Below are positions 12,607 to 21,995 of a stretch of 45,911 nt of DNA, piece by piece. The stretch's first letter is position 1. Every line of letters begins with the position of its first letter. The position numbers and the translations under genes were made by a program. Below the pieces are notes generated by a model. The model ran no database searches and had not been told where the DNA came from. It saw only the letters and a program-made list of their open reading frames with translations. The stretch comes from Armatimonadota bacterium (GTDB lineage Bacteria; Sysuimicrobiota; Sysuimicrobiia; Sysuimicrobiales; Sysuimicrobiaceae), in assembly GCA_025060455.1 (NCBI GenBank), contig JANXBY010000071.1, forward strand, positions 1-45,911, given 5' to 3'.

Positions 12607-12641
12607 CGAAGAACCGATCATCAGACCAATCGGGGAGTCTG

Positions 12642-13373
12642 GTGCCCTCCGCCGCGCTGGAACCGATCCGCCGCACGCGGGTCTATGAGCAGGTCGCGGC
12701 CCGCATCCAGCAGCTCATCCTCGACGGAGAGCTGCGGCCCGGCGACCGGCTGCCCACGGAGCGAGAGCTGGCGGAGCGCTTCCAGGTGAGCCGCAGCTCG
12801 GTGCGGGACGCCATCCGGGTGCTGGAGCTCATGGGCCTGGTGGAACCCCGACAGGGCGAGGGCACGGTGGTGCGGGACCTGAGCCCCGACGCGGTGGTCA
12901 CTCCTCTCGCCTCCCTCCTCGTCCGGAGCCGGGACCTGCTGGCAGACCTCCTGGACGTCCGCAAGATGATCGAACCGCACCTGGCGGCCCGGGCTGCCGT
13001 CCACGCCACCGAGCAAGACGTCCAGCGCCTGGAGGCCATCCTGGAGCGTCAGCGGGTGAAGGCCGCCGCGGGCGAGCTGGCGGTGGAGGAGGACTCGGAG
13101 TTCCACTACACCATCGCCACCGCCGCCCGTAACCAGGTCATCCTGCGGATCCTGGACGTCCTCATGGACCTGTTGAAGACCAGCCGGGAGCGGTCGCTGC
13201 AGGTCCCAGGTCGTCTCCAGAGGTCCCTGGAGGGGCACGCGCGGATTCTGGAGGCGATCCGGCGGCGGGACCCGGCCTCCGCGGAGGTGGCCATGCGGCG
13301 CCACCTGGAGGAGATCGAACAAGTCCTTGGGCAGGCCGTGTCCCGGAAGCGGCCGGCAGCCCGGGGGAGGTGA
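12642..13373 (+). CDS. GntR-family (FadR/FCD-type) transcriptional regulator
   Basis: The 243-residue protein has an N-terminal winged helix-turn-helix (about residues 10-80: YEQVAARIQQLILDGELRPGD, LPTERELAERFQVSRSSVRDAIRVLE). The all-helical FCD ligand domain follows. Metal/ligand residues are recognisable in EFHYTIATAARN, EGHARILEAI and MRRHLEEI. FCD regulators typically sense small organic acids. The GTG at 12642 follows GGGGAG by 4 bases. It is directly upstream of the oxidoreductase genes on the same strand (58-base gap, no promoter seen), so it most likely controls that operon in response to its substrate. This is inference from context. Confidence 0.9.
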   Translation: MPSAALEPIRRTRVYEQVAARIQQLILDGELRPGDRLPTERELAERFQVSRSSVRDAIRVLELMGLVEPRQGEGTVVRDLSPDAVVTPLASLLVRSRDLLADLLDVRKMIEPHLAARAAVHATEQDVQRLEAILERQRVKAAAGELAVEEDSEFHYTIATAARNQVILRILDVLMDLLKTSRERSLQVPGRLQRSLEGHARILEAIRRRDPASAEVAMRRHLEEIEQVLGQAVSRKRPAARGR

Positions 13374-13431
13374 GCCGGACGAGACGGGATCCTGGGCGGT
13401 GCCAATCCTCGAGCAAAAAGGAGGACCACGG

Positions 13432-14610
13432 ATGATCAAGCGGGTCGAGATCAACTACCGGGGGATCTTCCAGAAGAACCTCGCGAAGAAGATCGGGGGC
13501 GACATCGTGATGATCGCCGCCCGCATGGGCCAGGTGGGATTCTCCAACGGCCGCTACAGCGACGCCCCCGAGCGGAACGGCATCCCCTGCAAGTACTTCG
13601 CCTTCGTGTCCCCGGACCTCTCGGAGGAAGAGCTGGAGGCGGAGTGCGGGGCGAAGCTGGACATCGACGAGGCCAACATCTCCGTGGTGCTGGACGACAC
13701 CATGGTCAAGGGCGTGGAGCCGTGGGCGTGGCACGGTGTCCGGCCCATCAACGAGAAGGTGGTGCCCTACGGGCACATGCTGATCGTGTCCCGCCGGCGG
13801 CCGGAGGAGCTGGTTCGCTTCATGGCGCGCAAGCCCTACCCCTACTACCTGGCCCTCCTGGAGGGGGACGCCAGCTTCGCCGGGCTGTGGGTGTACCGGG
13901 ACGACCTGACGCACGAGCGGGTCCTGGGTGCCATCGCAGCCCTGGACCCGCAGCTCCTGAGCATTGAGGCGGTGAAGGGCTACCTCTGGGACAAGACCCA
14001 CGAGGAGCACCGGGTGGAGGCGGCGCAGAAGGCCTTCGAGTCCGTCCGCCACAACATCCACGAGGTGACCCCCCTGCAGGGCATCGACTGGCCGTACGAG
14101 ATCCCGAAGCTGCCAAAGTGGCATGAGTTCTCGGAGGGCGTGGTGGTGAAGGCCGTGCCCCGGGAGTTCCACCTGGGGCCCAAGGGCCAGTCCCGCAACC
14201 AGCTGTTCAAGCGCGGGACCACCAAGTCCCAGCGTCCCGTGGTGCGGTTCGACCTGTGCACCAAGTGCACCCTGTGCTGGCTGGAGTGCCCGGACCAGTG
14301 CTTCGACCCGACCCCGGACGGGTACTACGACATCGACTACGAGTACTGCGTGGGCTGCGGCAAGTGCGCGGAGGTCTGCCCCGTGCAGGAGTGCATCGTG
14401 ATGGTGGACGAGCTGGCCTTCGAGGACAACCGCAGCCCCTGGGAGCACTGGAAGCGTGACCCCGAGGGCTACGTCCGGTGGGCGGAGGAGAAGAAGGGCA
14501 AGCACCGGGTGCTGCCCAACGTGGTGACCGGGACCGGCGAACGGGTGGTGGAAGTGGAGCCGGTCCCTGTGGGGGGCAAGCCCAAGCCGGCCGCCCGGGC
14601 GGGCGCCTAA
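13432..14610 (+). CDS. oxalate oxidoreductase-like gamma-delta fused subunit (two 4Fe-4S ferredoxin domain)
   Basis: This is the electron-transfer subunit of a 2-oxoacid:ferredoxin oxidoreductase. Residues about 1-210 form a divergent gamma domain (FSNGRYSDAPERNGIPCKYF, VVLDDTMVKGVE). It lacks the usual glycine-rich GRGGQG start of pyruvate oxidoreductase gamma subunits. Residues about 265-330 are a bacterial ferredoxin domain with two CxxCxxCxxxCP clusters (CTKCTLCWLECP and CVGCGKCAEVCP). A 50-residue tail follows. A gamma-delta fusion in the order delta-alpha-beta is the arrangement I recall for the Moorella oxalate oxidoreductase. AAGGAGG lies 7 bases before the ATG. It is first of three genes, 21 bases before the alpha gene. 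Confidence 0.85.
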   Translation: MIKRVEINYRGIFQKNLAKKIGGDIVMIAARMGQVGFSNGRYSDAPERNGIPCKYFAFVSPDLSEEELEAECGAKLDIDEANISVVLDDTMVKGVEPWAWHGVRPINEKVVPYGHMLIVSRRRPEELVRFMARKPYPYYLALLEGDASFAGLWVYRDDLTHERVLGAIAALDPQLLSIEAVKGYLWDKTHEEHRVEAAQKAFESVRHNIHEVTPLQGIDWPYEIPKLPKWHEFSEGVVVKAVPREFHLGPKGQSRNQLFKRGTTKSQRPVVRFDLCTKCTLCWLECPDQCFDPTPDGYYDIDYEYCVGCGKCAEVCPVQECIVMVDELAFEDNRSPWEHWKRDPEGYVRWAEEKKGKHRVLPNVVTGTGERVVEVEPVPVGGKPKPAARAGA

Positions 14611-14631
14611 CGGTCGAAAGGAGGGTCGAGG

Positions 14632-15855
14632 ATGGCTGTCGCTCAACCTGTCGGGGTGTACGAACGGGAGGACCTGCTGACCGGTTGCCAGGCGGTGGCG
14701 GAGGGGATCCGGCTGGCCAACGTGGACGTCATCTCCGCCTACCCCATCCGTCCGTACACGGAGGTCATGGACGCGATCTCCAAGATCATCGCGGACGGAA
14801 AGCTGGTCGCCGAGTACATCGTGGCGGACAGCGAGCACTCCCAGTTCGAGATCGTGAAGCACGCGGCGTCTGTCGGCGCGCGGGCCTTCGCGGGGTCCAG
14901 TGGAACCGGCTGGATGTACGGGTTCGAAGCCCTGGTGGTGACCGCCACCGACCGCCTGCCGGTGCTGTTCCTGGTGGGAAACCGGGCCCTGGACGACCCC
15001 GGGGCGTTCGGCGTGGAGCACAACGACGCCCTGGCCATCCGGGACATGGGCTGGCTGCTGTGCTGGGTGGCCACCGCCCAGGAGGCCCTGGAGCACGTGC
15101 TGCTGGGATACCGGATCGCGGAGGACAAGCGGGTGATGATGCCCATGGCACTGGCCATGGACGGCGCCTTCCTCACCCACTCCCAGCACATCGTGCGCAT
15201 CCCCTCCCAGGAGGCGGTGAACCGGTTCCTGCCGCCCTTCGACCTGGCGGAGCGGCGCTTGCACCCGGACAACCCCGTGTCCATCGCCCCCCAGGTGAAC
15301 GAGGACTGGGTGATGGAGATCCGCCGGCAGAACTGGGAGGCGGCGCGGCGGGCGCGCGGGGTCATCGTCCAGGCCTACGAGGAGTTCAACCAGGTCTTCG
15401 GGGAGCGGTACAAGCCCCCATACTACTTTGAGGAGTTCATGACGGACGACGCCGAGGTGGTGTTGATCGGCATGGGGACGGTGGCCATGCCCGCCCGGAC
15501 CGCCGTGCGCCGGCTCCGGGAGCAGGGGCACCGGGTGGGATACGTCAACCTGCGGTGGTTCCGGCCCTTCCCGTCCGTGGAACTGCGGGAGTCCCTCCGG
15601 CGATTCAAGGCGGTGGGGGTCGTCGACCGGGACTTCGCCCACGGCTCCCCGGACGACGGCGGGGTGCTGCTGCACGAGATCCGGTCGTGTCTGTACCCCG
15701 CAAGGGAGCGGCCGGCGGTCGTGAACTTCATCACGGGACTCGGAGGCCGGGACGTCTCCATCCAGGACGCCATCCGGATGTTCGAGATCACCCAGGAGGC
15801 GGCCCGGAAGGAGCGCCTGGACGGGTTCGTCACCTGGGTGGGCGTGCGCGAGTGA
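14632..15855 (+). CDS. oxalate oxidoreductase-like alpha subunit
   Basis: The 407-residue protein is the alpha subunit (domains I and II) that lines the active site and helps bind thiamine pyrophosphate. Where pyruvate oxidoreductases have YPITPS, this protein has AYPIRPYT, with Arg40. Further on are Glu68, Arg118, Asp121 and Phe126 in LVGNRALDDPGAFG. From memory, Moorella oxalate oxidoreductase uses Arg31 and Arg109 to bind oxalate and Asp112/Phe117 in its switch loop, with Glu59 as the cofactor-activating Glu. Every one of these is offset by exactly nine residues here. This strongly favours oxalate, or a very similar dicarboxyl substrate, over pyruvate. AGGAGGG precedes the ATG. Confidence 0.88.
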   Translation: MAVAQPVGVYEREDLLTGCQAVAEGIRLANVDVISAYPIRPYTEVMDAISKIIADGKLVAEYIVADSEHSQFEIVKHAASVGARAFAGSSGTGWMYGFEALVVTATDRLPVLFLVGNRALDDPGAFGVEHNDALAIRDMGWLLCWVATAQEALEHVLLGYRIAEDKRVMMPMALAMDGAFLTHSQHIVRIPSQEAVNRFLPPFDLAERRLHPDNPVSIAPQVNEDWVMEIRRQNWEAARRARGVIVQAYEEFNQVFGERYKPPYYFEEFMTDDAEVVLIGMGTVAMPARTAVRRLREQGHRVGYVNLRWFRPFPSVELRESLRRFKAVGVVDRDFAHGSPDDGGVLLHEIRSCLYPARERPAVVNFITGLGGRDVSIQDAIRMFEITQEAARKERLDGFVTWVGVRE

Positions 15856-15869
15856 AGGAGGAGGGGAAC

Positions 15870-16868
15870 ATGGCGACTGCGGACAAGGTGCTCGTGTACG
15901 ACCGCATCAAGGGGGTCAAACAGATCCCCCTGGAAGAGTTTTACACCTCCGGCCACCGCACGTGCCAGGGCTGCGAGTCGGCCACCGTGATGCGGCAGTT
16001 CATCAAGGCCGCGGGGCCCCGGACGGTGGTGGCCGGGTCCACAGGCTGCATGTACGTGGCCAACACCAGCTACATGACGACCCCCTGGATTGTCCCCTGG
16101 ATGCACACCCAGCTGGGTGCCGGGGGCTCGTCCGCGGTGGGGATGGCCGCGGGGCTTCGGGCCCTCATGCGGAAGAACCGGATCCCGCAGGAGAAGATCA
16201 ACGTGATCTCCTTCTGCGGAGACCTGGGCGGCGGGGACATGGGACTGTCGGGGATCTCCGGAGCTCTGCAAACGGACTACGACCTGCTCATCATTATGTA
16301 CGATAATGAGTCCGCGGCCAACACCGACATCCAGGCCACCGGGCTGACCACCTGGGGGGCCCAGACGACCTTCAGCCCCGTGGGGAAGGTGGAACGGATC
16401 ATGCACCGGCGGTGGAAGAAGAACGTAGCGGCCATGCTGGCGGTGGGGCACCCTAACTGCCGGTACGTGGCCACCGCCTGCGCCACCTACCCGCCCGTGG
16501 ACTTCCTGAACAAGGTCCGCAAAGCCTTGAGCATCGGGGGGCCGACCTTCATCCACACCTACGACCCCTGCCCGAAGGGGTGGGACTTCCACCCCCGCTA
16601 CTCGCACGAGCTGGGTGAGCTGGGCGTGCGGTCGGGCCTGCTGCCCCTGTACGAGATCATCGACGGACAGGTGGTGTACACGTACGACGCCCGGAAGACG
16701 GGCAAGGGCCGGATCCCCGTCCGCGAGTATCTGACGAAGCAGGGCCGGTTCGCCCACCTGACGGAGGAGGATATCGCCTACATCCAGCGCATGGTGGACG
16801 AGATGTGGGACGAGTGGGAGGTCCCGGGAGTGGCGCCCTTCCGCGGCACGCTCAAGGTTTCCGCGTGA
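15870..16868 (+). CDS. oxalate oxidoreductase-like beta subunit (TPP-binding)
   Basis: The 332-residue protein is the thiamine pyrophosphate-binding beta subunit. The TPP motif starts at GDLGGGDMGLSG and ends at YDNESAANTDIQATG. Cysteines for the proximal 4Fe-4S cluster lie in RTCQGCESATV, GSTGCMY and YDPCPKGW. With the alpha and gamma-delta subunits it would form an enzyme splitting oxalate to two CO2 and passing two electrons to ferredoxin; coenzyme A is not needed in the known oxalate enzyme. AGGAGGGG lies 3 bases before the ATG and the gene begins 14 bases after alpha ends, so all three are one operon. Confidence 0.88.
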   Translation: MATADKVLVYDRIKGVKQIPLEEFYTSGHRTCQGCESATVMRQFIKAAGPRTVVAGSTGCMYVANTSYMTTPWIVPWMHTQLGAGGSSAVGMAAGLRALMRKNRIPQEKINVISFCGDLGGGDMGLSGISGALQTDYDLLIIMYDNESAANTDIQATGLTTWGAQTTFSPVGKVERIMHRRWKKNVAAMLAVGHPNCRYVATACATYPPVDFLNKVRKALSIGGPTFIHTYDPCPKGWDFHPRYSHELGELGVRSGLLPLYEIIDGQVVYTYDARKTGKGRIPVREYLTKQGRFAHLTEEDIAYIQRMVDEMWDEWEVPGVAPFRGTLKVSA

Positions 16869-16901
16869 CGGGAGGCCGGGAGGAGTTCGGGCGAAGGGGG
16901 C

Positions 16902-16952
16902 GTACATAGAAGAATAGAAAATTGGAGGAAAAATCTGAGCGCTAGGCTCAGA
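16902..16952 (+). promoter_or_regulatory. AT-rich spacer with hairpin between oxidoreductase and transporter genes
   Basis: Between the beta subunit and TctC lies a strikingly A-rich stretch (about 16902-16934) followed by a 7-bp hairpin TCTGAGC/GCTCAGA (16934-16940 and 16946-16952, loop 5). There is no T-tract, so this is not a classical terminator. It could reduce or process the transcript between the two modules, or be a promoter region for the transporter. Confidence 0.4.
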
Positions 16953-16975
16953 AATACCGGAAGGGGGAATGGGGA

Positions 16976-17983
16976 ATGGGGCTCGTGCGCAAGGCCTCGC
17001 TGACCCTGTGGATCGTGTGTGTCGTAGGGCTGCTGGGCTCTGGGGTCTGGGGCGCCCCGGCCTGGCAGCCCAACCGTCCCGTGGAGTGGACGGTCCCCGC
17101 GGGGACGGGCGGTGGTGCAGACCAGCAGGCCCGCCTGATGGCGCCGCTCATCGAGAAATACCGGCTCTCCCCTCAGCCCTTCATCCCGATCAACCGGCCC
17201 GCGGGTGCGGGTGCTCAGGCGTTCCTCTGGATGATCGACAAGACGGGGGACCCGCACACCATCCTGATCACCCTCGACAGTCTGTTCGCCACACCCGCGG
17301 CGCAGGTGATCCGGAAGCGGGACGGCTCGCGGTTCACCTGGCGGGACCTGTCGCCCATCGCGCGGCTGCTCCTCGACCACTTTGTCCTCTGGGTCCACGC
17401 CGAGTCGCCCTACCGGACCCTGGACGACTTCGTCCGTGCGGCGAAGGCAGGCCCGCCGGGAAGGCTGAAGATGGCGGGGACGGGCTCCAAGCAGGAGGAC
17501 GAGATCATCATGGTCATGCTGGAGCAGGCGTGGGGTGCCAAGTTCACCTACGTCCCCTTCCCCGGCGGTGGGGCGGTGGCTGCGGCCCTGGTGGGCAAGC
17601 AGGTGGACTTCACGGTGAACAACCCCATCGAGGCCGTAGGACACTGGGAGGCAGGTCGGGTCCGTCCGCTCGCCATCTTCGCCTCTGAACGAGTCCGGGT
17701 GGGCAAGTGGGGAGAGATTCCCACCATGAAAGAGTTGGGCTATCCCCTCGAGTATCAGATGCTGCGGGGGATCTTCGGCCCGCCCCAGATGCCCCCGGAA
17801 GCGGTCGCGTTCTACCAGGAGGTGTTCCGGCGCGTGCTGGACACCCCGGAGATGGAGGACTTTATCGAGCGCGGTGCGTACACGAAGGCGTACCTGACGG
17901 GACGTGAGTTCCTTCAGTGGCTTGAGCGGAAGGACGCCCAGGTGCGCACCCTGATGGACAAAGCGGGCTGGCTGGCTAAGTAG
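16976..17983 (+). CDS. tctC: tripartite tricarboxylate transporter substrate-binding protein (TctC/Bug)
   Basis: The 335-residue secreted protein has a signal peptide (hydrophobic core LTLWIVCVVGLLGSGV, cleavage near VWGAP). The TctC fold follows: RPVEWTVPAGTGGGADQQAR, the acid-binding loop region AGTGSKQEDE, YVPFPGGGAVAAALVGKQVDF and GIFGPPQMP. Such proteins capture carboxylates outside the inner membrane and hand them to TctAB. There is no lipobox cysteine, so it is predicted to be soluble in a periplasm. It is encoded right after the oxalate-type oxidoreductase, which suggests that its ligand is the enzyme's substrate. This is inference. Confidence 0.9.
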   Translation: MGLVRKASLTLWIVCVVGLLGSGVWGAPAWQPNRPVEWTVPAGTGGGADQQARLMAPLIEKYRLSPQPFIPINRPAGAGAQAFLWMIDKTGDPHTILITLDSLFATPAAQVIRKRDGSRFTWRDLSPIARLLLDHFVLWVHAESPYRTLDDFVRAAKAGPPGRLKMAGTGSKQEDEIIMVMLEQAWGAKFTYVPFPGGGAVAAALVGKQVDFTVNNPIEAVGHWEAGRVRPLAIFASERVRVGKWGEIPTMKELGYPLEYQMLRGIFGPPQMPPEAVAFYQEVFRRVLDTPEMEDFIERGAYTKAYLTGREFLQWLERKDAQVRTLMDKAGWLAK

Positions 17984-18014
17984 CGGGCCTCGGGGAGGAA
18001 AAAGGGGGCCGGGG

Positions 18015-18488
18015 GTGCGGAAGGCTGGGCTGACGTTCGCGGTGGCGATGGTGCTAGCCGGGGTAGTGCTCCTACGGGAAGCCACCCGGCTTCCCACCGG
18101 GTGGACAGCCTCTGGCCCTGGTCCCGGCTTCTTCCCCTTCTGGTTGGCAGCGGGCTTCACCGTCAGCGCCTTCGCGGTCCTCCTGCGTGAGTGGACTGCG
18201 AACCAGGGCAAGGGGGAGCGATTCCTGCCGGAGGGGGCTGGGAAGCGCATCGCGGTGGTGTTCCTGCCCATGGCGGCCGTGGTGGGCTTGCTCCACTACC
18301 TGGGTGTGTATATGGGCGGGCTGCTGTACCTGCTCGGCTACAGCCGCCTCGTGGGACGCCACTCGTGGCCGACGGTCCTAGCGGTGAGCGTTGGGGTCCC
18401 CCTGACGCTGTTCTTTGTGTTCGAACGTTGGTTCCTCATGCCGATGCCCAAGGGGATTGTTCTGGAGTGGCTCCTGTACGGAAGGTAG
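18015..18488 (+). CDS. tctB: tripartite tricarboxylate transporter small membrane subunit TctB
   Basis: The 157-residue protein has four hydrophobic segments (LTFAVAMVLAGVVLL, GFFPFWLAAGFTVSAFAVLL, RIAVVFLPMAAVVGLL and a split C-terminal pair ending TVLAVSVGVPLTLFFVF). It also has the family's GPGPGFFPFWLA near residue 35. It is the small integral subunit needed for TctA function. The GTG start at 18015 follows GGAGGAAAAAGGGGG. It lies 31 bases after tctC and 3 bases before tctA. Confidence 0.85.
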   Translation: MRKAGLTFAVAMVLAGVVLLREATRLPTGWTASGPGPGFFPFWLAAGFTVSAFAVLLREWTANQGKGERFLPEGAGKRIAVVFLPMAAVVGLLHYLGVYMGGLLYLLGYSRLVGRHSWPTVLAVSVGVPLTLFFVFERWFLMPMPKGIVLEWLLYGR

Positions 18489-18491
18489 CGT

Positions 18492-20033
18492 ATGGATTTC
18501 ATTCGGACGTTCCAGGATCTGCTGTACGGGCTCGCGGTGGCCGCATCTCCGCAGAACCTCCTCGTGGCCGTGATCGGCCTCCTGTTGGGGACCGCCATCG
18601 GTGTACTACCGGGGTTGGGCGGGACGAACGGAGTCGCCCTGCTCCTCCCCCTCACCTTCCACCTGAGCCCGACCGCGGCCATCATCTTGCTGAGCTGCGT
18701 ATACTGGGGGGCCATCTTCGGTGGGGCCATCACCTCCATCCTGTTCCGAATTCCTGGAGAACCGTGGTCGGTGGCCACCATGTTCGACGGCTACCCCCTG
18801 GCCCGACGAGGGAAGCCTGGGGTGGCATTGACGGCTGCCTTCGTGGCGTCCTTCATCGGAGCGCTTATCTCCATTGTGCTGTTCACCTTCTTCGCACCGC
18901 CCCTGGCCGAGATGGCCCTGAAATTCGGACCGCCCGAGAACTTCGCTGTCCTGCTCCTTGCCTTCGCCAGCATCGCGGGGCTCGAGGGGGGAGATCCCGT
19001 CAAGGCGTTGACCATGACGTTTCTCGGCCTCCTGTTGGCGACCGTGGGGTTTGACATCGTCAGCGGGACGCCTCGGATGACGTTCGGGTTGGTCGCCCTG
19101 CAGAGTGGAGTCAGCTTCGTCGTCATCGCCATCGGACTGTTCGGGATCGGCGAGATCCTCTTGACCGTAGAGGAGAAACTCCGGCTCGACGGCCTGAAAG
19201 CCCGCCTCAGCTTCCGCGAGGTGTGGGAGACCTGCCGGATGTTCCGGAACTACATTGGGACCCTGATCCGCAGCGCCCTCCTGGGATTCTGGATCGGGAT
19301 CCTCCCGGGGACAGGCGCTACGCCCGCCTCCTTCATGGGCTACGGGATGGCCCGGCAGTTCAGCCCTCGCGGTTCTCGGTTCGGGACCGGAGAGGTTGAG
19401 GGGATCGTGGCGCCCAACACGGCCGCCCATGCAGCGGGAATCGGTTCCCTGCTACCCATGATCACCCTGGGCATCCCCGGTTCCCCGACTGCCGCGGTGA
19501 TGCTGGCAGGCCTGTTCATCTGGGGTCTGAACCCAGGTCCCCTCCTCTTCCAGGAGAACCGGGAGTTCGTCTGGGGTTTGGTCGGTTCGATGTACCTGGC
19601 CAACGTCCTTGGGGTCCTGATGGTGCTGACCATGGTGCCGCTCTTTGCTGCCATCGTGCGGATTCCGTTCGCCATCTTGGCACCCCTGATCGTCATCCTG
19701 TGCAGCGTGGGTGCTTACGCGGTCAACAACCAGGTGTTGGATCTGTGGATCATGCTGGGCTCGGGGCTGGCGGGGTACCTGTTCAAGAAGCTCGGTTATC
19801 CCCTAGCGCCGTTGGTGGTCGCCCTGGTGCTGGGCGACATGACGGAGCAGGCGTTCCGTCAGAGCCTCATCATGGGCCAGGGCTCGCCGGCCATCTTCTT
19901 CACGCGGCCCATCGCGGCGTTCTTCGTCGTGACGGCTCTCGCGATCTTCCTCTTCCCCTTCGCCCGCAGCGCCCTGCGGCGCGCCCGGGGCGGCGCGGTC
20001 GCCGCAGAGGCACCAGGGACCGCGGGATCCTGA
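18492..20033 (+). CDS. tctA: tripartite tricarboxylate transporter large membrane subunit TctA
   Basis: The 513-residue polytopic protein is the permease of the secondary, ion-coupled TctCBA system. The two halves are related. Each carries the conserved loop: GVLPGLGGTNGVALLLPLTF in the first half, and GILPGTGATPASFMGYGMAR in the second. About 10-12 hydrophobic segments are visible. With tctC and tctB it forms a complete uptake system for a small carboxylate. Codon third positions look a little less G/C-biased than in the adjacent oxidoreductase genes, which would fit separate acquisition, though I have not measured it. Confidence 0.92.
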   Translation: MDFIRTFQDLLYGLAVAASPQNLLVAVIGLLLGTAIGVLPGLGGTNGVALLLPLTFHLSPTAAIILLSCVYWGAIFGGAITSILFRIPGEPWSVATMFDGYPLARRGKPGVALTAAFVASFIGALISIVLFTFFAPPLAEMALKFGPPENFAVLLLAFASIAGLEGGDPVKALTMTFLGLLLATVGFDIVSGTPRMTFGLVALQSGVSFVVIAIGLFGIGEILLTVEEKLRLDGLKARLSFREVWETCRMFRNYIGTLIRSALLGFWIGILPGTGATPASFMGYGMARQFSPRGSRFGTGEVEGIVAPNTAAHAAGIGSLLPMITLGIPGSPTAAVMLAGLFIWGLNPGPLLFQENREFVWGLVGSMYLANVLGVLMVLTMVPLFAAIVRIPFAILAPLIVILCSVGAYAVNNQVLDLWIMLGSGLAGYLFKKLGYPLAPLVVALVLGDMTEQAFRQSLIMGQGSPAIFFTRPIAAFFVVTALAIFLFPFARSALRRARGGAVAAEAPGTAGS

Positions 20034-20045
20034 CGGGAGCCCGGC

Positions 20046-20858
20046 TTGGGGATCGTCGCCTTCACCCGTGAACTGGGCAGCCTCGGCACCTTCATCGCGG
20101 AGGAGCTGGCCCGCAGGCGTGGGTATCGGTTTGTCCGCCGGGAGATCCTCGAGGCGGCTGCCCGCACGAGTCCTCTGACCGAAGACGAGCTCACGCGGCT
20201 GGTGGAAAGTCCACCTGGACTCTGGGAGCGGCTCAGCCTGCCGGCCCGCCGCCACTTCTACCACGTGGCAGCCCGGGTGCTGGAGTACGCGCAGGCGGAT
20301 GACGTGGTGATTTTGGGGCGCTGGTCCACCATGCTCCTGCGAGGAGTGCGGCACGCGGTCCGGGTGCGGGTGTGCGCTCCGCTCCCCATCCGTGTCGAAC
20401 GGCTGGCGGAGCGCCTGGGCGTGTCCAGGTCAGAGGCCCAGGCCATCGCGGAACGGTACGATCATGGCGTGCGGGCGCGGATCCGCCAGTTCTTCGACGT
20501 GGAGTGGGAGGACAGCGACCTGTACGACCTCGTGATCAACACGGAGCGGATCGGCGTGGAGCGTGGGTGCGAGCTGGTGGAGCACCTCGTGGACAGCCCG
20601 GAGTTCCAGCCCGATGAGGCCTCCCGCCAGGAGGTCCGGGACCGATCACTGGCCGCGCGCGTCCAAGAGATGCTGAAGTCCGATGACCGTTTGGGACACG
20701 TGGACCTGCACGTGACCGCCCGACAAGGCACAGTGACTCTGGAGGGCGTGGTGTTCGGGCCGGAGGAGCGACGGGTGGTGCTGGAGGTGGTGAGATCCGT
20801 CCCCGGTGTGGCCGCGGTGGACGACCGGCTCACTGTGGCCCGCATGCCTATCCGGTGA
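20046..20858 (+). CDS. cytidylate-kinase-like protein fused to a BON domain
   Basis: Residues about 1-190 resemble the cytidylate kinase-like family (PF13189 type): TRELGSLGTFIAEELARRRGYRFV takes the place of a P-loop, followed by ADDVVILGRWSTMLL and VERLAERLGVSRSEAQAI. The P-loop is degenerate, with no GKS/T. Residues about 205-268 form a BON domain (AARVQEMLKSDDRLGHVDLHV, ARQGTVTLEGVVFG, VRSVPGVAAVDDRL), usually a lipid- or ligand-binding module. The TTG start at 20046 is the earliest supported start, 12 bases after tctA. Kinase-like proteins of this family often accompany carboxylate transporters, where they may act as sensors. The function is unknown. Confidence 0.7.
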   Translation: MGIVAFTRELGSLGTFIAEELARRRGYRFVRREILEAAARTSPLTEDELTRLVESPPGLWERLSLPARRHFYHVAARVLEYAQADDVVILGRWSTMLLRGVRHAVRVRVCAPLPIRVERLAERLGVSRSEAQAIAERYDHGVRARIRQFFDVEWEDSDLYDLVINTERIGVERGCELVEHLVDSPEFQPDEASRQEVRDRSLAARVQEMLKSDDRLGHVDLHVTARQGTVTLEGVVFGPEERRVVLEVVRSVPGVAAVDDRLTVARMPIR

Positions 20859-21137: not shown

Positions 21138-21995
21138 TTGACGACCGTGGGGCGTCCGGCTTCCAAAGTCCGCGCGGCGGTGCGCGTTGTCCGCGGTGAC
21201 CGGCTGGAGGTTCGTACGGACTTTCTGGCCACGGAGGAGCCCCTGGAGGTGCGGCTTGCCGCAGGTCCCCACCGCAGGACGGTGGCGGTCACCATGCGGA
21301 CGCCTGGGCACGACTTCGAGCTCGCCGCGGGGTTCCTCTTCAGCGAGGGGGTGGTTCGCGGGCGGGAAGACATTGCCCGCATCGCGTACTGCCTGGACTC
21401 GGACCTTGCTGGAGAGCAGACGTACAACGTGGTCACCGTGGAACTCCGCCGGGACGACCTGCCGGAGCTGGGTTTCCTGGAGCGCCACTTCTTCACCACC
21501 AGCGCCTGCGGGGTGTGTGGGAAGGCCAGCCTGGACGTCCTTTGGGCCCGTGGGTGTGCGCCTGTGAACGGCGGGGTGCAGATCGATCCTCGGCTTCTAG
21601 CCGAGCTGCCCGACCGCCTGCAGCAGGCTCAGAGCCTGTTCGCGCACACGGGAGGCCTGCACGCGGCGGCCCTGTTCGACGGCGAAGGGCAGCTCGTGGC
21701 CCTTCGGGAGGACGTCGGCCGGCACAACGCCATGGACAAGCTGGTGGGGTGGGCTCTGTTGGAGGGCAAGCTCCCGTGGCGTGACTACGTGGTGATGGTG
21801 AGCGGACGTGCCAGCTTCGAGCTCGTGCAGAAAGCCGTGGTGGCGGGTGCACCGGTGTTCTGCGCGGTTTCCGCGCCCACAAGCCTCGCGGTGGAGGTGG
21901 CCAAGGCTTTCCGGGTGACCCTGGTCGGCTTTTTGCGCGGCGACCGGTTCAACGTCTACGCTGAACCGTCCCGGATTACAGGGATGTCGTCCTAG
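21138..21995 (+). CDS. fdhD: formate dehydrogenase accessory sulfurtransferase FdhD
   Basis: FdhD moves sulfur from a cysteine desulfurase to the molybdenum/tungsten bis-guanine dinucleotide cofactor of formate dehydrogenases. The 285-residue protein has the family marks MRTPGHDFELAAGFLFSEG, the CxxC in TTSACGVCGKAS (Cys124 and Cys127), GGLHAAALF and REDVGRHNAMDKLVG. The annotated TTG start at 21138 gives a normal length. A formate dehydrogenase must be encoded elsewhere in the genome. Placement beside an oxalate-type oxidoreductase is sensible, because oxalate metabolism in acetogen-like organisms feeds CO2/formate chemistry. The gene ends at a strong terminator. Confidence 0.93.
   Translation: MTTVGRPASKVRAAVRVVRGDRLEVRTDFLATEEPLEVRLAAGPHRRTVAVTMRTPGHDFELAAGFLFSEGVVRGREDIARIAYCLDSDLAGEQTYNVVTVELRRDDLPELGFLERHFFTTSACGVCGKASLDVLWARGCAPVNGGVQIDPRLLAELPDRLQQAQSLFAHTGGLHAAALFDGEGQLVALREDVGRHNAMDKLVGWALLEGKLPWRDYVVMVSGRASFELVQKAVVAGAPVFCAVSAPTSLAVEVAKAFRVTLVGFLRGDRFNVYAEPSRITGMSS

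Follow-up and report, generated by a model that had tools for sequence, protein, structure and literature searches.

A predicted oxalate-use operon

Positions 12642 to 20033 of contig JANXBY010000071.1, from the Armatimonadota bacterium assembly GCA_025060455.1 (order Sysuimicrobiales), carry seven genes on the + strand that probably constitute an operon for oxalate use. The entire 45,911-nucleotide stretch analyzed is referred to below as the window. Oxalate, which is abundant in soils and plants, would be imported by TctCBA, a tripartite tricarboxylate transporter (TTT), and converted to two CO2 by a delta-alpha-beta enzyme sister to Moorella oxalate oxidoreductase (OOR), with a GntR/FCD protein as the sensor. 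We favor oxalate because the enzyme carries the OOR active-site motif and because OxlT and Frc are found among its neighbors. A sequence-only reading had suggested a locus for taking up and oxidizing oxalate, served by a TTT; that proposal is largely supported, with the OxlT and Frc neighbors and the OOR motif speaking for it, while the enzyme itself turned out to lie outside the curated OOR families.

In the proposed mechanism, TctC would capture oxalate, its predicted ligand, outside the membrane, and TctA and TctB would carry it inward, driven by an ion gradient (both the direction and the ion coupling are predictions). The thiamine pyrophosphate (TPP)- and Fe-S-dependent enzyme, with oxalate as its predicted substrate, would split it into two CO2, and two low-potential electrons would pass by way of three [4Fe-4S] clusters, one of them in beta and the others in delta, to the putative acceptor, ferredoxin. 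Expression would be controlled by the GntR/FCD protein, which may sense oxalate or a product. At proteobacterial loci, an FprA-type reductase would pass the electrons on to NADP.

Relationship of the oxidoreductase to OOR

The enzyme is encoded by genes for a delta subunit (13432 to 14610, +), composed of an N-terminal domain and a C-terminal 2[4Fe-4S] ferredoxin domain (Pfam Fer4 dicluster); an OOR-like alpha subunit (14632 to 15855, +; Pfam POR_N and PFOR_II); and a TPP-binding beta subunit (15870 to 16868, +; TPP_enzyme_C) with four conserved Cys residues for the proximal [4Fe-4S] cluster. The best PDB match of each subunit was Moorella OOR. Alpha matched 5c4i_A at 2.7e-100, compared with 2.3e-61 for pyruvate:ferredoxin oxidoreductase (PFOR; 9bt4_B). 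Beta matched 5c4i_C at 6.6e-82 and delta matched 5c4i_B at 1.8e-16, the latter mostly via its ferredoxin part, and both were ahead of PFOR 9bt4. Among NCBIfam models, the OOR models (NF045790-92) likewise ranked best for all three subunits.

The available text of PMC5020499 describes Arg31 of OOR as making a YPIRP motif that is unique to OOR and binds oxalate, and as the partner of Asp116 in a plug loop of the bait-and-switch type. Residues were counted over 103 aligned alpha rows, comprising 98 family members, four PFOR-like paralogues, and one canonical OOR (L061). Arg40, Arg118, and Asp121 of the window alpha correspond to Moorella Arg31, Arg109, and Asp112, and Ala125 replaces Asp116. The Arg31 equivalent, within the YPIRP motif, is kept in 98/98 family members, the window included, and is also Arg in L061; all four PFOR-like paralogues have Thr at this position. 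The window thus has Arg rather than the Thr of the PFOR-type YPITP motif, and a plain PFOR was rejected on this ground. Equivalents of Arg109, Asp112, and Phe117 are likewise present in all 98 family alphas, and Pro113 is changed to Asp in every one of them. Since Arg31, Arg109, Asp112, and Phe117 are kept and Asp116 and Pro113 are changed, the substrate side appears to be OOR-like and the gate different.

Cluster ligands are also conserved. Cys 32/35/60 of beta occur in 101/101 rows and Cys 234 in 100/101, and the eight cluster Cys residues of delta occur in 91 to 92 of 93 rows, the remainder being gaps. As in OOR, the window enzyme has Cys ligands for three [4Fe-4S] clusters (four in beta and eight in delta) and a TPP domain. 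Because Arg31 is kept, yet Asp116 is lost and the NCBIfam OOR cut-offs are missed (scores below), the enzyme is, judging from its sequence, a family sister to OOR and outside the curated OOR families. By eye, the canonical OOR at L061 (PGDFG), from genome G028, has an Lrp-type regulator and a large permease as its neighbors.

Linkage of the transporter to the enzyme

We searched 61 genomes, of which 43 belong to the window's order. An orthologue of the enzyme was found in 30/61, with 95 to 96% identity in three congeners and 56 to 61% in other families of the order. The GntR-delta-alpha-beta block recurs in relatives from the order on every contig of sufficient length, and window-kind Tct genes lie 3′ of beta in 14/43 order genomes; in one further order genome, the TctC and TctB after beta are more distant and are followed by the contig end. 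Because the block recurs and Tct follows beta in these 14 genomes, the gene order is not due to chance. Conserved linkage in related genomes, on which the sequence-only reading had staked itself beforehand, was thus borne out by the survey.

TctC (16976 to 17983, +; Pfam TctC, 8.6e-27), TctB, the small membrane subunit (18015 to 18488, +; Pfam TctB, 1.4e-18), and TctA, the large membrane subunit (18492 to 20033, +; Pfam TctA, 2.2e-149), are contiguous, and all three are above the Pfam cut-off, as expected of a TTT. TctA proteins of the order fall into two groups by their identity to that of the window, one at 69% or more and the other at 50% or less. The former number 14, in 14 genomes, and 14/14 directly follow beta: 12 are in full view after beta (the G002 locus is split, and its TctA is on the second contig), and two (G019 and G040) are on contigs that start with the tail of beta. 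In a TctA tree, 18/18 enzyme-linked TctA proteins, which had been picked by their similarity to that of the window, formed one clade (support 100) apart from 41 others; these 41 are a selection rather than all copies in their genomes (40 stretches were chosen), and many come from the same genomes. The linked proteins derive from the window's order, Nitrospinota, Bipolaricaulota, Myxococcota, and Pseudomonadota.

These results bear on the alternative that the enzyme is an ordinary pyruvate or 2-oxoacid:ferredoxin oxidoreductase lying by chance, or loosely, beside a citrate-type TctCBA. The enzyme does belong to the PFOR superfamily, and TctA is common in the order, with eight copies in the window genome. 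This alternative is nevertheless already disfavored and very unlikely, given the Arg in place of Thr in 98/98 family alphas, the fact that within the order each TctA of the clade directly follows beta, and three genomes (G064, G066, and G068) in which the locus TctA is the only TctA.

The solute-binding protein gave a similar result. The linked TctC proteins (17 of 19; the L068 and L073 rows, which are upstream genes, were excluded) formed one clade with support of 100. Ala42, Ala48, Leu100, Glu174, Ala202, and Asn215 are fixed in this clade, and each occurs in at most 9% of other TctC proteins. In an AlphaFold2 model of the window TctC (pLDDT 88.4), these residues are at strand ends and in loops, where such proteins would hold their ligand. 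The best Foldseek match of the model was 4x9t, followed by TphC, TBP, Bug27, and MatC.

For a wider view, the best 80 of 304 relatives in a scan of named genomes were kept. They come from many bacterial phyla and from the archaea Nitrososphaerota and Thermoplasmatota, and nearly all are metagenome assemblies by title; some labels are doubtful, and several loci are near-copies or misbinned (alpha is identical in L070 and L072 and in L098 and L099). After removal of same-contig repeats, neighbors were surveyed at 100 loci, 23 from the order and 77 from named genomes. Window-kind Tct adjoins 20/100 loci and OxlT adjoins 11/100; no locus of the 100 carries both. At the 59 loci flanked on each side by 2.5 kb or more, the counts were 13 and 9. 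Window-kind Tct was present at 11/77 named loci, compared with about 1 to 2 of 77 expected by chance. The expectation is a hand estimate for a 16-kb flank that uses a density of about one TctA per Mb; the 19 genomes behind this density had been selected for their loci and are therefore non-random.

OxlT and Frc beside the enzyme

One family of the order (f7) has the same GntR-delta-alpha-beta block with Tct absent from the locus, and its 12 genomes have zero or one TctA each. OxlT lies downstream of beta in G012, G024, and G036 and also in G041, where its frame is broken, and in G042, where it is a fragment at the end of the contig. OxlT is therefore present at 5/11 loci of this family with readable downstream DNA; the other six have other genes, and one further locus is cut. 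Above the TIGR04259 cut-off, OxlT was found in 5/43 order genomes, beside the enzyme in three and elsewhere in two (G030 and G031), and in 0/15 order genomes and 0/9 outside genomes that have Tct at the locus.

The L053 protein scored 599 bits against the TIGR04259 cut-off of 335, and the first PDB match of the L053 and L056 genes was OxlT 8hpj (3e-67 and 1e-63). Counted on the alignment, L053 OxlT keeps Gln34, Tyr35, Tyr124, Asn268, Arg272, Trp324, Tyr328, and Lys355. Arg272 and Lys355, which are essential in OxlT according to the available text of PMC10070484, are kept in both proteins; Tyr150 is changed to Phe and Trp352 to Tyr. With 30 of 103 rows of the alpha tree labeled (20 Tct and 10 OxlT), at least four transporter changes are needed. 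An OxlT-like gene at the Thermoplasmata locus L111 missed the TIGR04259 cut-off (204 versus 335); this gene, similar ones at L112 and L128, and L097, being below the 40% identity limit, were left out of the neighbor count.

Frc (formyl-coenzyme A [CoA]:oxalate CoA-transferase), counted when at least 50% identical to the gene of L100, adjoins 7/100 enzyme loci. Three Frc genes were scanned, and all were above the TIGR03253 cut-off of 504 bits (679, 675, and 652); none above this cut-off was found in the 43 genomes of the window's order. The TPP enzyme beside L100 was considered as a canonical Oxc and rejected (222 versus a cut-off of 739 bits); its best model was acetolactate synthase, itself below cut-off. 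An FprA/adrenodoxin-reductase-type ferredoxin:NADP reductase adjoins 8/100 loci, all labeled proteobacteria, and the L131 gene matches 1lqt at 1.2e-117. One proteobacterial assembly (L134:711-12996) has TctC-TctB-TctA, a TPP enzyme, delta-alpha-beta, an FprA-type reductase, and Frc on one strand.

Exchange of the enzyme within a retained frame

In the alpha tree, the window alpha and its congeners fall in clade A, together with Chloroflexota, Acidobacteriota, and Myxococcota/Binatota, and the order's other families form one clade within clade B. A single clade of the window alpha and its kin in the order was rejected (approximately unbiased test, P = 1e-143, on 44 of 103 rows). The window GntR falls inside family f2, and the TctA and TctC of the window stand beside those of G020, from family f5. 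Identities to L041 were 47, 58, and 66% for delta, alpha, and beta, and 83% for both GntR and TctC. Since alpha is in clade A while GntR, TctA, and TctC group with kin from the order, delta-alpha-beta was exchanged in place for a distant type within a retained GntR/TctCBA frame in the window's genus. Myxococcota/Binatota may provide a second case of in-place exchange, since enzymes of both A and B there share a single GntR clade (support 99). OxlT and Frc neighbors occur beside both enzyme clades. Given the exchange within a retained frame, the two clades seem to do the same job.

Weighing of the oxalate reading

Several observations weigh against an oxalate-use operon. All three subunits miss the curated NCBIfam OOR cut-offs (alpha, 384 versus 500 bits; beta, 333 versus 590; delta, 87 versus 230). 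Asp116 of the bait-and-switch plug loop is Ala in 97/98 family alphas and Ser in 1/98. Genome G028 has both a window-type enzyme and a canonical OOR, so the two types may differ in substrate. Neither window-kind Tct nor OxlT is present at 69/100 loci, or at 37 of the 59 fully visible ones. Tct sets from outside the clade are also near four loci (L068, L073, L083, and L087); the TctA upstream of L068, L073, and L083 (44 to 45%) and at L087 (35%) was not counted as linked, and one of these uncounted TctA proteins, L166, sits among the 41 others in the tree. Within the order, the Tct linkage is inherited, and those genomes are therefore not independent.

The changes at Asp116 and Pro113 and the presence of both enzyme types in G028 would also suit an operon that serves some other small two-carboxylate acid (mesoxalate, tartronate-derived acids, oxaloacetate, or malonate) imported by TctCBA. 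Known TTT ligands, according to the available text of PMC5812351, are mostly two-carboxylate acids. We consider this alternative unlikely, since OxlT and Frc above oxalate-curated cut-offs lie beside both enzyme clades and a Pfam scan found no further catabolic enzyme within the window's operon.

Loci without a recognized transporter, which are the majority, speak for another alternative, in which the enzyme detoxifies or recycles intracellular oxalate and TctCBA imports a precursor or handles an unrelated acid. Genes for flavin mononucleotide (FMN)-dependent 2-hydroxyacid oxidases, which could make intracellular oxalate from glycolate or glyoxylate and would thus suit this alternative, are near five Chloroflexota loci (L136:7625-9931, L132, L135, L142, and L144). 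This is the least likely of the alternatives, because one kind of transporter stands beside the enzyme in the order and at nine outside loci, with OxlT elsewhere instead. Near the 37 fully visible loci with neither transporter, no common transporter was found (96 of 147 rule-picked genes tallied); Pfam families of these 96 genes included mixed members of the major facilitator superfamily (MFS) (10), ABC permeases (5), and others. Nearby FMN oxidases and acyl-CoA synthetases, present at some loci, were considered, and no pathway tie was made. An oxalate-use operon remains our preferred reading of the locus.

Layout of the operon and its surroundings

The first gene (12642 to 13373, +), with a GTG start codon, encodes the GntR/FCD transcriptional regulator predicted to act locally on the operon (Pfam GntR, 5.5e-23; FCD, 2.9e-31); its orthologue sits directly upstream of delta in relatives of the window's order. 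Intergenic gaps from GntR through TctA are, in order, 58, 21, 14, 107, 31, and 3 nucleotides, and each of the seven genes has at least one Pfam family above the gathering cut-off. The coordinates and families agree with the earlier description of seven genes in tight order on one strand. A 5-base inverted repeat with a 10-base spacer, seen by eye just before the GntR start (12622 to 12642), may be an operator or chance.

A gene for a cytidylate-kinase-like and BON protein (20046 to 20858, +; Pfam Cytidylate_kin2 and BON) starts 12 nucleotides 3′ of TctA and may be the last gene of the operon; it is also 3′ of TctA in the congeners G001, G002, and G003 and in G020, from another family. FdhD, a formate dehydrogenase accessory protein, is encoded downstream at 21138 to 21995. 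It was rejected as part of the module: none was seen near the operon in L032, and in L033 it lies about 9 kb away, farther along the contig. The remainder of the window looks ordinary (citrate synthase, RecA, CinA, Mn catalase, FtsK, RNase J, a DapA-like protein, and others).

Implications and comparison with known systems

If the oxalate reading is true, oxalate uptake gains a transporter family, oxalate oxidoreductase extends from one acetogen to many environmental lineages, and the question of which plug-loop residues the enzyme really needs can be put to a sharp test. Many uncultured bacteria, as well as some archaea, have related gene sets, so oxalate transporters of a new type may be widespread. 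Ligands are known for few TTT proteins, and a clade with a predicted one is therefore directly testable. A broader proposal has, in our estimate, about an even chance of being right: a second, so far unrecognized OOR family (PGAFG type, without Asp116) would be spread across some archaea and a wide range of uncultured bacteria, among them lineages generally regarded as aerobic, with an FprA-type reductase alongside turning oxalate electrons into NADPH. It would be fed by OxlT or by the first oxalate-specific TTT branch, and its two enzyme clades would interchange within one retained regulator/transporter frame.

No oxalate TTT system was found in a search of the open literature, with most subscription papers outside it, and the word "oxalate" is absent from the available text of the TTT review PMC5812351. 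The same open literature, with OOR structure papers outside the search, yielded no report of the window-type enzyme or of oxalate use in the other lineages. The word is also absent from the text of PMC11604079, on Sysuimicrobiales.

Like the Moorella thermoacetica OOR (PDB 5c4i, 5exd, and 5exe), the window enzyme has a delta-alpha-beta makeup with the ferredoxin domain fused in delta, and it shares Arg31 of YPIRP, Arg109, Asp112, Phe117, and the beta Cys residues. It differs in lacking Asp116, in having Asp for Pro113, in scoring below the NCBIfam cut-offs, and in its longer delta (392 versus 315 amino acids), with a weakly related N terminus; its operon, moreover, has its own GntR regulator and its own transporter. 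The Frc/Oxc pathway is linked to window-type enzymes through Frc at seven of the surveyed loci, whereas the window operon has no CoA transferase and the order no Frc above the cut-off. OxlT (PDB 8hpj) holds the same slot 3′ of beta in a sister family but is a single MFS antiporter that exchanges formate and has no relation to TctCBA. No formate for such exchange would come from an oxidoreductase whose only product is CO2, and import without formate exchange would fit an enzyme that makes none. With the TTT systems for citrate, terephthalate, malate, and oxoadipate, the window shares a complete TctC/B/A set and a TctC fold nearest to 4x9t, TphC, TBP, Bug27, and MatC; in contrast to those systems, its Tct proteins form a separate clade with its own clade residues, tied to an oxalate-type oxidoreductase.

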